Positions 4,869 to 41,249 of a stretch of DNA of 64,000 bases are shown one piece after another (position 1 is the stretch's first letter; each line of letters starts with the position of its first letter). The stretch is taken from assembly GCA_902789795.1 (NCBI GenBank), contig CADAPM010000004.1, positions 124,001 to 188,000 on the forward strand. The letters are read 5' to 3'. The position numbers and the translations under genes are program-made. The DNA is from an uncultured Eubacteriales bacterium. Lineage in GTDB: Bacteria > Bacillota > Clostridia > Christensenellales > Aristaeellaceae. The notes below the pieces were generated by a model, which was given only the letters and a program-made list of their open reading frames with translations, had not been told where the DNA came from and made no database searches.

Positions 4869-5029
4869 AGTGTGGAGAGTGGAGAGTGAAGTGTGGAGTT
4901 GCGGTAGAAATGCCGCAGAGCGGCATTTCGGTTCTAACTCATGAAGCACTAATATTATCAAAAAAACTCTGAGCCGACGGCGAAGAGTTTTATCCTGAAC
5001 TCCACTCTCCACACTTCACTCTTCACACT
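4869..5029. repeat. Heptamer-armed palindromic element, copy 1
   Basis: A 161-bp intergenic element has 32-base arms (4869-4900 and 4998-5029) built of heptamers of the type GTGGAGA/GTGAAGT. The two arms are 27/32 identical as inverted repeats and about 29/32 pairable if G-U pairs are allowed. Inside are a hairpin TGCCGCAGAGCGGCA (4911-4925), a degenerate middle part, and a nested hairpin ACTCT-GCC-GAC-GGC-AGAGT (about 4966-4989). Related elements lie at 8442-8614 and 41087-41249. No open frame, transposase or poly-T terminator is associated. Confidence 0.85.
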
Positions 5030-5080: not shown

Positions 5081-7174
5081 ATGGACATCGTCAACCATAC
5101 CGTCCTGGCGTGGCTGGAAGAGGATAACCAGAAGCTGGGACATTTTCGGGTCCGTCCGCTGCTGCGCGAGACGGGGCCCTTTACGCCTGCTGAGATCGGC
5201 GAATGGCGCGACGAAGGTTATATCCGCGTAGTGCCGGACAAGTCGGAGCAGCGCAGCAGCAAGGAGCGCATGCGCGGGCTGGGAAATTTCTGCCTGCTCA
5301 CGCTGAAAGGCTCCCATGCGGACAAGTTCAAGCCCAACAAGAGCTATGCCCCTGCCAAGGGAGAGAAAAACCGCTATATCGTTTACTCCAACACCGTGAA
5401 AGCGGTGCCGGAGCAGCTGTTTTACGAGGTGATCCCCGAAAGCCTGATGGCGAAAGCCGTGACCGCCCGCGTCTACGCGCGCCAGGGCGGCAAGATCCAC
5501 GGCCCGGTGGACCGCCAGACAGGCCGGGACCTGAAGGACGCCTGCCCCCTGCCGCCGGATGATCCGCGTATCTTTTCCGTGACGCTGCCGGACGGCTCCG
5601 TGCGCCTGTTCTACTGGCCCGCGGCGGCTGAGCCGAAGGCGGAGCCTGCGCCGGAAGCGGCAGCCCCGGCCCCGACGGCCGAAGAGCAGCCCGAGGACGC
5701 GGAGGCCATGACGGCCCTGGACCAGATCAAGGCCCTGGACCGGCAGATGATGCGTCTGGTCAAGGAGACCGACGATCCTGCATCCGCGGAGAAGCCCCAG
5801 GACGTGGTGATCGCGGACGACGCGGGCACCCCGCTGTATTACGCCCAGGTGGAAACGGAAGCCCCGGCAAAGCGCCGCAACAGCCTGGCCCAGGCGGTGG
5901 AGAACAACCGCCGCGCGGCCAAGCCTGAGCGGACGGAACCGGAAAAGAAGCCTGAAAAAAAGAAGAAGCCCCGCGGACAGGAGCAGGCCGCTGCCGCGCC
6001 TGTAGCTGCCGCCGCCCGACCGCAGCCCTTTGCGGAAGCGCTGAAGGCGGAGTGGACGGAGGCGGACCGGAAGAATCTGGTTTCGGAGATCCTCGCTTTG
6101 CCCGGAGCGCGGGAGCAGTTCGCCCTGGCGCTGGGCGGCACGGCGGATCCGGTGCTGGCGGCGCTGAAGGCGCAGCTGCAGGACACCGAAGCGGAGCGCC
6201 TGATGACCGTGATGAACCTGAACCAGGCCAAGGCGCAGGAAGCGGAATACCGCGATGCCCTGGCGGCGGGCCTGGTCAAGAGCGAGCGCCAGGCGCTGGA
6301 TCAGCTGAAGGCCGAAACGGAAAAGGCCGTTGCTGACCTCGAAGAATTGAAGAAGCAGCGCGACGAGCTGGCGCGGGAGCAGGAAGCTGCCATGAAGGAT
6401 GTTTTCCCGACGGCCAGCGTTGCTCCCGGCGCGGCGGAAGAGGACGCCCCGGTCGTGACGGCAGCGCACCGCGTGATGGAAAGCCTGCGCACCGCCGGTT
6501 TCGCCTGCGGGCAGAACGACGCTGTGGCCCTGCTCCTTTTGTACGCGCAGAGCCGCGGCGAGGACGGCTGGCGTCTGCGCGCCGAGAGCGCGGCGGACAG
6601 TCGGGATGCCGCTGAGACCCTGGCCAGAGCGCTGGGCGGAAAGACTGCTGACTGCCGTGTGCATCACCGTGTCCTGCAGGGCGGTACAGCGGCGCTGCTG
6701 ATGCTCTGCCGTGATCAGTGGCCCCTCGTTCCGGTGCCGGATGAATGCGCCTGCGTATATATGCCGGCTGACAGCGAAAACGCTGAGCGCCTCATGCCGG
6801 AGATCCGGCTGCACCAGAGCGGAGCGATGCCCGGGATGCCGGCTGCGTGCCCGGCGCTGGACAGCGTCGCGCTCAAGAATAAGGTCAGGGAGCTGCGCAC
6901 GCCGCTGAATCCGGCGGCCCAGGAGGTCGTGTCGGCGCTGAGAACGCTGTGCTCCGAGCGCGGCATCATCCTGCCGCTGCACATGATCCGCGGCCTGACG
7001 GCCTTTGCGGAAGCGGCGCAGAACCTGATGGAAGGCGGCGTCTCCGCGGCACTGGATCAGGCGTTCCTGATCTATGCCGCGCCGATGATCATGAAGGAAG
7101 CGGACGACACCGGCTTCCTGGACGAGCTGACGAAGGCGCTGCCCTTGACCCGCGCGGCGCTGGGGCTGAAATGA
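5081..7174 (+). CDS. Uncharacterised 697-aa protein with charged linker and coiled coil
   Basis: I do not recognise this protein. Residues about 1-190 form a folded basic N-terminal region; about 190-330 is an Ala/Pro/Glu/Lys-rich low-complexity linker; about 350-460 is a charged helical, coiled-coil-like stretch (LDQLKAETEKAVADLEELK); and about 470-697 is a second globular region with several Cys residues. It lacks a signal peptide or membrane segments and is probably cytoplasmic. AAAGGA lies about 11 bases before the ATG. Its stop overlaps the start of the rRNA methyltransferase (ATGA), implying coupled expression. GC-rich codon use matches the neighbours, so it is likely a resident lineage-specific gene. 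Confidence 0.8.
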   Translation: MDIVNHTVLAWLEEDNQKLGHFRVRPLLRETGPFTPAEIGEWRDEGYIRVVPDKSEQRSSKERMRGLGNFCLLTLKGSHADKFKPNKSYAPAKGEKNRYIVYSNTVKAVPEQLFYEVIPESLMAKAVTARVYARQGGKIHGPVDRQTGRDLKDACPLPPDDPRIFSVTLPDGSVRLFYWPAAAEPKAEPAPEAAAPAPTAEEQPEDAEAMTALDQIKALDRQMMRLVKETDDPASAEKPQDVVIADDAGTPLYYAQVETEAPAKRRNSLAQAVENNRRAAKPERTEPEKKPEKKKKPRGQEQAAAAPVAAAARPQPFAEALKAEWTEADRKNLVSEILALPGAREQFALALGGTADPVLAALKAQLQDTEAERLMTVMNLNQAKAQEAEYRDALAAGLVKSERQALDQLKAETEKAVADLEELKKQRDELAREQEAAMKDVFPTASVAPGAAEEDAPVVTAAHRVMESLRTAGFACGQNDAVALLLLYAQSRGEDGWRLRAESAADSRDAAETLARALGGKTADCRVHHRVLQGGTAALLMLCRDQWPLVPVPDECACVYMPADSENAERLMPEIRLHQSGAMPGMPAACPALDSVALKNKVRELRTPLNPAAQEVVSALRTLCSERGIILPLHMIRGLTAFAEAAQNLMEGGVSAALDQAFLIYAAPMIMKEADDTGFLDELTKALPLTRAALGLK

Positions 7175-8441: not shown

Positions 8442-8614
8442 AGTGAGGAGTGAGGAGGTAGGAGTGAGGAGTTCAGGAAGAAACTCCTCCACTGCGTTAC
8501 GGAGTATTCTTCAACTGTTGCGGCGCTACGCGCGATATACAATCGAACAAATGCCAGAGCGAAGCGGCGGCATTTGCACCTGAACTCCTCACTCCTCATT
8601 CCTCATTTCTCATT
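8442..8614. repeat. Heptamer-armed palindromic element, copy 2 (inverted orientation)
   Basis: A 173-bp intergenic element has 36-base arms (8442-8477 and 8579-8614) built of GTGAGGA-type heptamers. The innermost 18 bases of the arms are perfectly complementary; overall 34/36 positions can pair with G-U allowed. Compared with copies 1 and 3 the interior is in reverse orientation. Read on the minus strand it has the same succession of features: a hairpin ending in GGCAT, a GCGCGTAGCGC hairpin, then TTGAAGAATACTCC and an ACTCC/GGAGT hairpin, then CTTCC and the second arm. No coding potential is seen. Confidence 0.83.
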
Positions 8615-41086: not shown

Positions 41087-41249
41087 AGTGATAAGTGATA
41101 AGAGATAAGTGATAAGTTTTGGTGGAAACTGCGCAGAGCGCAGTTTCTTTCATTATCGCACGAAGTGCTTCAATAATTGAAGAATACTCTGAGCCGAAGG
41201 CGAAGAGTTTCTTCCGCAACTTATCACTTATCTCTCATCACTTATCACT
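41087..41249. repeat. Heptamer-armed palindromic element, copy 3
   Basis: This is the most regular copy, 163 bp. Its 32-base arms (41087-41118 and 41218-41249) are tandem GTGATAA heptamers and are complementary at 31 of 32 positions. The interior has CTGCGCAGAGCGCAG (41129-41143), a GCACGAAGTGC hairpin (41158-41168) and ACTCT-GCC-GAA-GGC-AGAGT (41186-41208). The layout equals copies 1 and 2 while the heptamer itself differs. It lies between the GH94 terminator and the end of the SGNH gene. Confidence 0.88.

Follow-up and report, generated by a model that had tools for sequence, protein, structure and literature searches.

Hairpin elements with paired heptamer arms, with and without an IVP gene, as a probable mobile family in bacteria

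The window analysed here, 64,000 nt of a contig from an uncultured Eubacteriales bacterium, holds three elements (c1, c2 and c3) with complementary arms of tandem heptamers, at the positions given for them in the initial annotation (Table 1). Arms were analysed over 32 nt. Between them lie 97 nt in c1, 109 nt in c2 and 99 nt in c3, with two or three inner hairpins, and c2 is inverted in comparison to the other two. The arms of c1 form the 27 Watson-Crick pairs claimed earlier, but only two of the five remaining positions are G-U pairs, where most had been thought to be. When the same arms were paired across the three copies, 19-23 of the 32 positions matched. The RNA fold energies of c1, c2 and c3 were -79.2, -82.3 and -84.5 kcal/mol with z-scores of -9.0, -8.8 and -11.9, and none of 200 shuffles was equally good. 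Rfam gave no family match in the window. Both c1 and c2 are located between same-strand ORFs, and the distance from the upstream stop codon is 5 nt for c1, 1 nt for c2 and 59 nt for c3. The surroundings of c3 differ in synteny: its neighbours were found on different contigs in the six sister genomes with a match, and its flanks, read onward in five sisters, led elsewhere each time. No heptamer element was found beside either flank of the c3 site in the ten sister flanks examined.

Table 1. Positions in the window of the three elements, their arms and their inner hairpins
Feature	Position	Strand	Description or basis
c1, whole element	4869..5029		
c1 left arm	4869..4900		GTGGAGA/GTGAAGT-type heptamers; 27/32 Watson-Crick with right arm, 2 G-U
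c1 inner hairpin 1	4907..4929		fold, alignment with 13 copies, pair counts
c1 inner hairpin 3, stem with GA/GA internal loop	4963..4991		fold, pair counts
c1 right arm	4998..5029		arm pairing
c2, whole element	8442..8614		
c2 left arm	8442..8473		heptamer GTGAGGA; 26/32 Watson-Crick, 4 G-U
c2 hairpin 3, orientation opposite to c1 and c3	8477..8512		fold, alignment
c2 hairpin 1, longer version	8548..8576		fold, alignment
c2 right arm	8583..8614		arm pairing
c3, whole element	41087..41249		
c3 left arm	41087..41118		heptamer GTGATAA; 31/32 Watson-Crick, 0 G-U
c3 hairpin 1	41125..41147		fold, pair counts
c3 hairpin 2, GAA triloop	41158..41168		fold, pair counts
c3 hairpin 3	41179..41214		fold, pair counts
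c3 right arm	41218..41249		arm pairing

The search for further copies that had been proposed with the annotation was positive. BLAST of c3 against the genome gave 96 matches, and together with the own-genome matches of c1 and c2 and the second IVP locus described below these formed at least 59 clusters at 450 nt. After two split large elements had been joined by eye, at least about 57 places in the genome remained, some of them single arms. The arms fall into the families GTGATAA, GTGAGGA, GTGAAGA/GTGGAGA and GGAATTA, with GTGATAA and GTGAGGA the commonest heptamers (10 each) in a set of 28 strict copies. An odd third unit, AGAGATA, was common to 10 of 13 GTGATAA-type left arms, indicating that these copies seem to be mutually descended. 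Judged by eye the interiors are modular, and either hold between one and four hairpins or extend over several hundred bases. The architecture described at first, arms around about 100 bases, therefore holds for c1-c3 but not for copies that are much larger or carry a gene. At locus L030 three heptamer families are nested within each other on both sides, and the right side of L032 has the same series; it looks as if new elements had landed inside older arms. Larger stretches with one or both arms were seen at L030 (1120-1960), L032, L035 (8156-8561), L041 and L045, where repeats, for example GTAGGGGCGGATCACC..GATCCGCCC and at some of them also CATTCTGAGC..GCGAAGAATC, take the place of a gene. 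The interiors of the 28 strict copies contained 65 hairpins, 51 of them with triloops, of which 22 were GNA (10) or TNC (12). GNA loops form very stable DNA minihairpins.

The IVP gene and its heptamer arms

Both PF05635/TIGR02436 genes of the genome, encoding the 23S rRNA intervening-sequence protein (IVP), were found between complementary heptamer arms. The first (L034/L052, C11:17491-18052) has GTGATAA arms and subterminal hairpins around the ORF, and matches gene-less copies in its arms, in the kind of subterminal hairpin and in the right end CCTGAACTTATC. In this genome arms and subterminal hairpins are thus common to a gene-bearing copy and gene-less ones. The second gene, at C6:21189, lies between GGTTGAA arms. 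The two proteins scored 98.6 and 111.2 bits with TIGR02436 (cut-off 24), all 18 aligned relatives matched PF05635, and 2rld was the only solved relative of the second IVP detected by sequence at E 0.001.

An IVP match was present in 15 of 40 genomes, comprising this genome and its relatives. Among 24 IVP loci from these genomes, inspected by eye, eight had complementary heptamer arms on both sides (L051, L052, L053, L054, L056, L058, L059 and L060), at three a heptamer hairpin was confined to the 5' side (L057, L062 and L064) and one had a single tract (L068). Most of the other loci had arrays of short palindromes before the IVP gene, without heptamer arms. In the 5' flanks of L055, L061, L063, L065, L069, L070, L072 and L073 these palindromes are joined by a fixed word, for example GTGAAAT or ATATCGC, and the arrays are perhaps a second type of element tied to the IVP. 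We also asked if the heptamer of the IVP copy is the commonest one of its genome. This reading was not adopted: GTGATAA ties with GTGAGGA here, the GGTTGAA arms of the second IVP copy were not noticed in any of the gene-less copies inspected, and the samples from sister genomes hold few elements (one paired element in 400 kb of G007, none in G001 and seven in 277 kb of G004, one of the seven having the heptamer of G004's own IVP copy).

Next, the best 80 of at least 587 confirmed loci (at least 592 pattern matches) from a scan of named loci by IVP alignment were analysed. PF05635 genes occur in distant phyla; by record titles the best 80 loci belong to Bacteroidota, Bacillota, Spirochaetota, Pseudomonadota, Verrucomicrobiota, Planctomycetota and Cloacimonadota. 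At the 76 loci with enough flank, a 7-periodic tract was found upstream in 60, downstream in 66 and on both sides in 54. Periods of 5, 6, 8, 9, 10 and 11 gave 0 or 1 locus per side at the same 76 loci and none on both sides. Heptamer tracts were present in 130 of 156 gene-adjacent 300-nt windows, as compared to 4-13 of 135-154 windows farther away (3-9%). The median arm complementarity was 25 within a locus, 10 across loci and 9.5 when the flanks were displaced by 1 kb. An arm score of at least 18 was reached by 57/76 loci, 37/912 cross-locus pairs and 0/65 shifted controls, and at 47/76 loci the own arms scored higher than with any of 30 right flanks from other loci.

A second sample was ranked by PF05635 score and not by likeness to the IVPs of this genome. 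It had a match in 58 of 398 genomes of the phylum, and of 30 loci taken from among the best, 29 were usable. Heptamer tracts were found in 37/58 near windows and 5/58 far ones, and complementary arms at 17/29 loci versus 1/29 in the control, with 12/29 loci below an arm score of 18. IVP matches were also found in 25 plasmid records. Seven of the first eight of these had clear arms (score of at least 20; two are the same Planktothrix element) and one was weaker (17.5), while no arms were found in the two phage records. In plasmids of Planktothrix, Dolichospermum and Chlorohelix (L198, L199, L215, L203 and L207) the IVP gene follows a helicase gene by annotation, with one hypothetical protein in between at L203 and a hypothetical protein as the other neighbour at L198. 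Two of the Planktothrix records have DrmD as the helicase. Nearby, again by annotation, is a gene for a DNA methyltransferase or for restriction-modification.

The heptamers vary between loci yet follow the pattern ARTKNNN. Separate motif fits of the upstream (76) and downstream (81) heptamers gave the same result, A, A/G, T, G/T and three freer bases, with 3.92 and 4.08 bits of information as compared to maxima of 2.85 and 2.72 in 25 shuffles each. Reading inward fitted better than the reverse complement for 64/76 upstream and 57/81 downstream heptamers, and at 59 of 68 loci a heptamer was common to both arms (shuffled mean 6.3, maximum 14). Many units in the phylum sample were AGTCNNN, indicating that the fourth base is not strict. 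This grammar gives a simple means to find and annotate such elements.

In the IVP protein tree L052 and L058, from the same site but with different arms, form a pair (support 97/88), and L060 from this site is unplaced. The IVPs of L120 and L121, listed as Bacteroidota and Clostridiales, grouped together (92/85), which suggests transfer.

Occupied sites, empty sites and gene ends

Seven sites with both flanks aligned were compared between species: c1, c2, b, c, e and the two IVP sites (IVP1 and IVP2). This tally leaves out c3, positions 5879 and 8156 of L035, whose flanks are on different contigs, and two sites of L040 (a and d) for which no match had both flanks. The sister genome G007 had an element at six sites and a one-arm remnant at site e, always with a heptamer other than that of the present genome (G000). 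Occupied and empty sites, a comparison suggested by the initial annotation, could be told apart, as another sister was empty at six of the seven sites, and the empty sites were without arms. At c1, G007 has the GTAGGAA type, G004 the AATGCGT type and G003 a decayed element, and G001, G002, G005 and G006 are empty. At c2, G007 again has the GTAGGAA type, G003 a short GTGAGGA-like element, and G001 and G005 are empty. Sites b, c and e are occupied in G007; G003 is empty at b and e and has a short decayed element at c, and G001 is empty at b and c. The IVP2 site has the IVP element in G000 and a gene-less multi-hairpin element in G007, and is empty in G001, G004 and G006. At IVP1, with flanks 82-88% identical and no empty sister seen, IVP elements are present in G000, G007 and G001 with GTGATAA, GTGAGGA and GTGGAGA arms, respectively. 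Because the proteins of L052 and L058 are sisters, the gene at this site seems to have been retained while the arms changed, although re-entry is also possible. Strict paired elements are sparse in G007, although the BLAST matches listed include dozens elsewhere; by an informal estimate this sparseness makes chance overlap at 7/7 sites unlikely. Either the sites may be hot spots, or one element may replace another.

No event of movement was seen and no target duplication was resolved at the sites compared, all of them between species. On three Nostoc plasmids an IVP element with AATTCGC arms lies within a gene that elsewhere is a DNA cytosine methyltransferase. At L205 the pieces of this gene measure 231 and 279 nt, and the whole gene, on three other Nostoc plasmids, 759-765 nt, so that about 250 nt next to the insertion are absent. 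Close to the left junction, the intact gene has the sequence CAATTCG, similar to the arm unit, a single case that is possibly due to chance. Additionally, L204 and L216 have the same element (88%) between unrelated flanks, and the upstream flank of L217 is that of L216, whereas downstream L217 has the flank of L204.

These comparisons bear on the idea that heptamer tracts are host repeats of the STRR kind, made by replication slippage and by template switching in quasi-palindromes, into which IVP genes insert. Template switching does make paired arms, and 16 heptamer pairs without an IVP were detected, in 13 of the 80 named loci. Heptamer tracts as such have also been published before, as far as the accessible text of the two reports goes (PMC4679880, PMC4692102). 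However, the empty sites have no heptamers, tracts are rare away from IVP genes, and slippage leaves the shared grammar and the dispersed, similar interiors unexplained. We therefore regard this origin as very unlikely.

The position of the elements relative to genes was determined with mechanical ORFs of at least 80 codons at the 57 IVP loci with good arms. A same-strand ORF ended near the left arm at 55/57 loci (median -1 nt), and the stop codon touched or fell inside the arm at 30 loci. In 25/57 the stop codon started 0-15 nt before the left arm, where a uniform position in gaps predicts about 12%. The stop was within 15 nt either way at 37/57 loci, a number that rises to 42/57 when stops inside the arm are included. 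Stops inside the arm may just mean that the arms hold stops in several frames, and the placement may reflect survival instead of targeting. A same-strand start codon followed the right arm at 53/57 loci, with a median distance of 20 nt and quartiles of 8 and 31 nt. Among gene-less copies, an ORF stopped inside an arm or no more than 15 nt from one in 24/28, a number that is inflated by chance ORFs.

Arm complementarity and a possible mechanism

In the initial annotation the arms were read as covarying between copies, either under selection on a folded structure or by the rewriting of both arms together through a replication or mobility mechanism. A structure written from c3 was applied to 14 aligned full copies (12 from this genome and 2 from G007), in which it paired at 88.2% as compared to 77.7% after shuffling. 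Both sides had changed at 19 of the 32 arm pairs, and the covariation score of 0.302 exceeded those obtained after shuffling (0.131) and after sliding (no more than 0.079). Further pair types did not exceed the shuffles (45 versus 41.5; 69/500 shuffles as high). Arms were then swapped between the 28 strict copies, 22 from this genome and 6 from G007, which had themselves been chosen for pairing. Own arms paired at 27.3 of 32 positions, foreign arms with the same innermost heptamer at 28.3 and other foreign arms at 22.1. The arms thus change together, as had been claimed, but between heptamer families and not copy by copy. As foreign arms of the same family pair as well as own arms, the complementarity appears to be set at the origin of a family and not repaired in each copy.

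The mismatches in 57 arm pairs comprised 50 G-U and 47 A-C pairs and 157 transversions. This lack of preference for G-U suggests that RNA pairing is not maintained after insertion, and with no copy-specific compensation either, the arms lend no support to selection on a folded RNA after insertion. RNA elements under selection, in which transcribed hairpins stabilise or cut polycistronic mRNA, the arms compensate and IVP genes are passengers, would be consistent with the strong folds of c1-c3, the covariation over 14 copies, the same-strand ORFs around c1 and c2 and the short distance from the right arm to a start codon. However, the mismatch counts, the equally good pairing of same-family foreign arms and the many empty sister sites make this unlikely. 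An orientation bias with the upstream gene, 70/76 co-directional by a loose method, was rejected as a candidate signal when gene calling gave 55/65 versus 113/155 in controls, a difference that is not significant (p 0.08) and does not help the RNA explanation. Rewriting of both arms together by a mobility mechanism fits better than RNA selection.

We think that these are probably IVP-linked mobile hairpin elements, the IVP being the putative mobilising protein and the window copies gene-less members of the family. In a full member about five tandem heptamers (ARTKNNN, for the most part oriented inward) make up the left arm, which is followed by a subterminal hairpin, a single IVP gene, another subterminal hairpin and the complementary right arm. 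Gene-less members retain arms and hairpins. The IVP, a four-helix-bundle protein, may recognise the hairpin ends and drive spread, acting in cis on the element that encodes it and in trans on those that have no gene. The element would travel as one folded strand in which the first arm sets the second, so that each new family would have complementary arms with no need for selection on individual copies. RNase III may cut the long stem in transcripts, as it does in 23S rRNA intervening sequences. The simplest account would be that the element is set down as a unit, its arms derived from one another, and that the IVP, which is Avd-like, handles the folded strand. To our knowledge, no catalytic site is known for the IVP. 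IVP/S23p proteins are described as having no known function in the accessible part of one report (PMC4990558).

A TnpA/RAYT-like partner had been suggested as well, but none was linked to the elements: the genome has one Y1 transposase match, with no heptamer tract or element word within 3.3 kb around it, and the partner found was the IVP. This also concerns an ordinary MITE of an undetected transposase, with the IVP as cargo and the heptamers as slippage products of its ends. Such an origin would give inverted ends, dispersed copies and empty sites, all of which were observed, but only the grammar of the ends, and not their sequence, is conserved between copies or species, the gene inside is an IVP, and the only match in a transposase search of the Y1 family is not beside an element. 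We consider it quite improbable.

Beyond the probable IVP-linked mobility, we tentatively suggest a wider picture, which may well be wrong. The elements could represent an undescribed class of mobile element, in which an Avd-like four-helix-bundle protein without its own transposase or reverse transcriptase carries hairpins, folded from a single strand, to the stop codons at gene ends. With the second arm copied from the first, the heptamer would be free to change between families and the arms would still pair. The tandem heptamers scattered through bacteria would then be footprints of this class, and the intervening sequences of 23S rRNA would be those of its copies that had inserted there. 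Joining the IVP and the intergenic heptamers gives each of them a testable explanation.

Comparison with known systems

The SDR elements of Nostoc, reported by Elhai in 2008, are said to be small hairpins embedded in tandem heptamers. They combine hairpins and tandem heptamers as here, and differ in their reported size of 21-27 nt and in having no protein gene. Tandem intergenic heptamers (TAACTGA, GGGAATC; STRR) have been described in distant groups, with no evident mechanism according to the accessible text (PMC4679880), and 70 and 75 inverted heptamer pairs are given for two Xanthomonas (PMC4692102, in part). The repeats of Beggiatoaceae, cyanobacteria, Bacteroidetes and Xanthomonas are, as here, tandem 7-nt intergenic units. 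The accessible parts of these two reports contain no link to the IVP and no paired-arm element, and the term S23 is absent from their main text. Cyanobacterial STRR heptamers had been taken as a merely distant analogue. This was too cautious, as paired heptamer arms like those described here also enclose IVP genes of cyanobacterial plasmids.

REP/REPIN sequences with RAYT are hairpin repeats in inverted pairs that are tied to one protein family. Unlike these, no copies flank the sole Y1_Tnp match here, and the linked protein is the IVP. The elements also differ from a MITE of a known transposase in that the ends differ by family and, with Y1 as the transposase family searched, no conserved terminal sequence shared with a transposase-bearing element was found. 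PF05635 resembles Avd of diversity-generating retroelements (PMC10053308, from its accessible part). Unlike Avd, the IVPs here have no neighbouring reverse transcriptase, as RVT_1 gave no match at E 0.001 in the genome, which is 88% complete. No link between an IVP and paired heptamer arms at sites other than rRNA was found in the accessible open-licence PMC literature, a scope that leaves novelty unproven.

The closest known system is the 23S rRNA intervening sequence (IVS) with an S23p/IVP gene, as in Leptospira and Coxiella. Short 23S rRNA IVS may be without an IVP gene. Unlike the IVS, the elements here are located between protein genes, have heptamers in both arms and occur as gene-less copies in many places, and no rRNA match was found in the 20 of the 80 IVP loci that were checked. 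In the Coxiella IVS, according to the accessible text, the gene is preceded by tandem heptamers, the stem is 28 bp long and RNase III cleaves in vitro (PMC4990558). As in 23S rRNA IVS, the terminal inverted repeats of the present elements form one long stem, and as in the long type both IVP-bearing copies have the gene inside, the window copies being gene-less.
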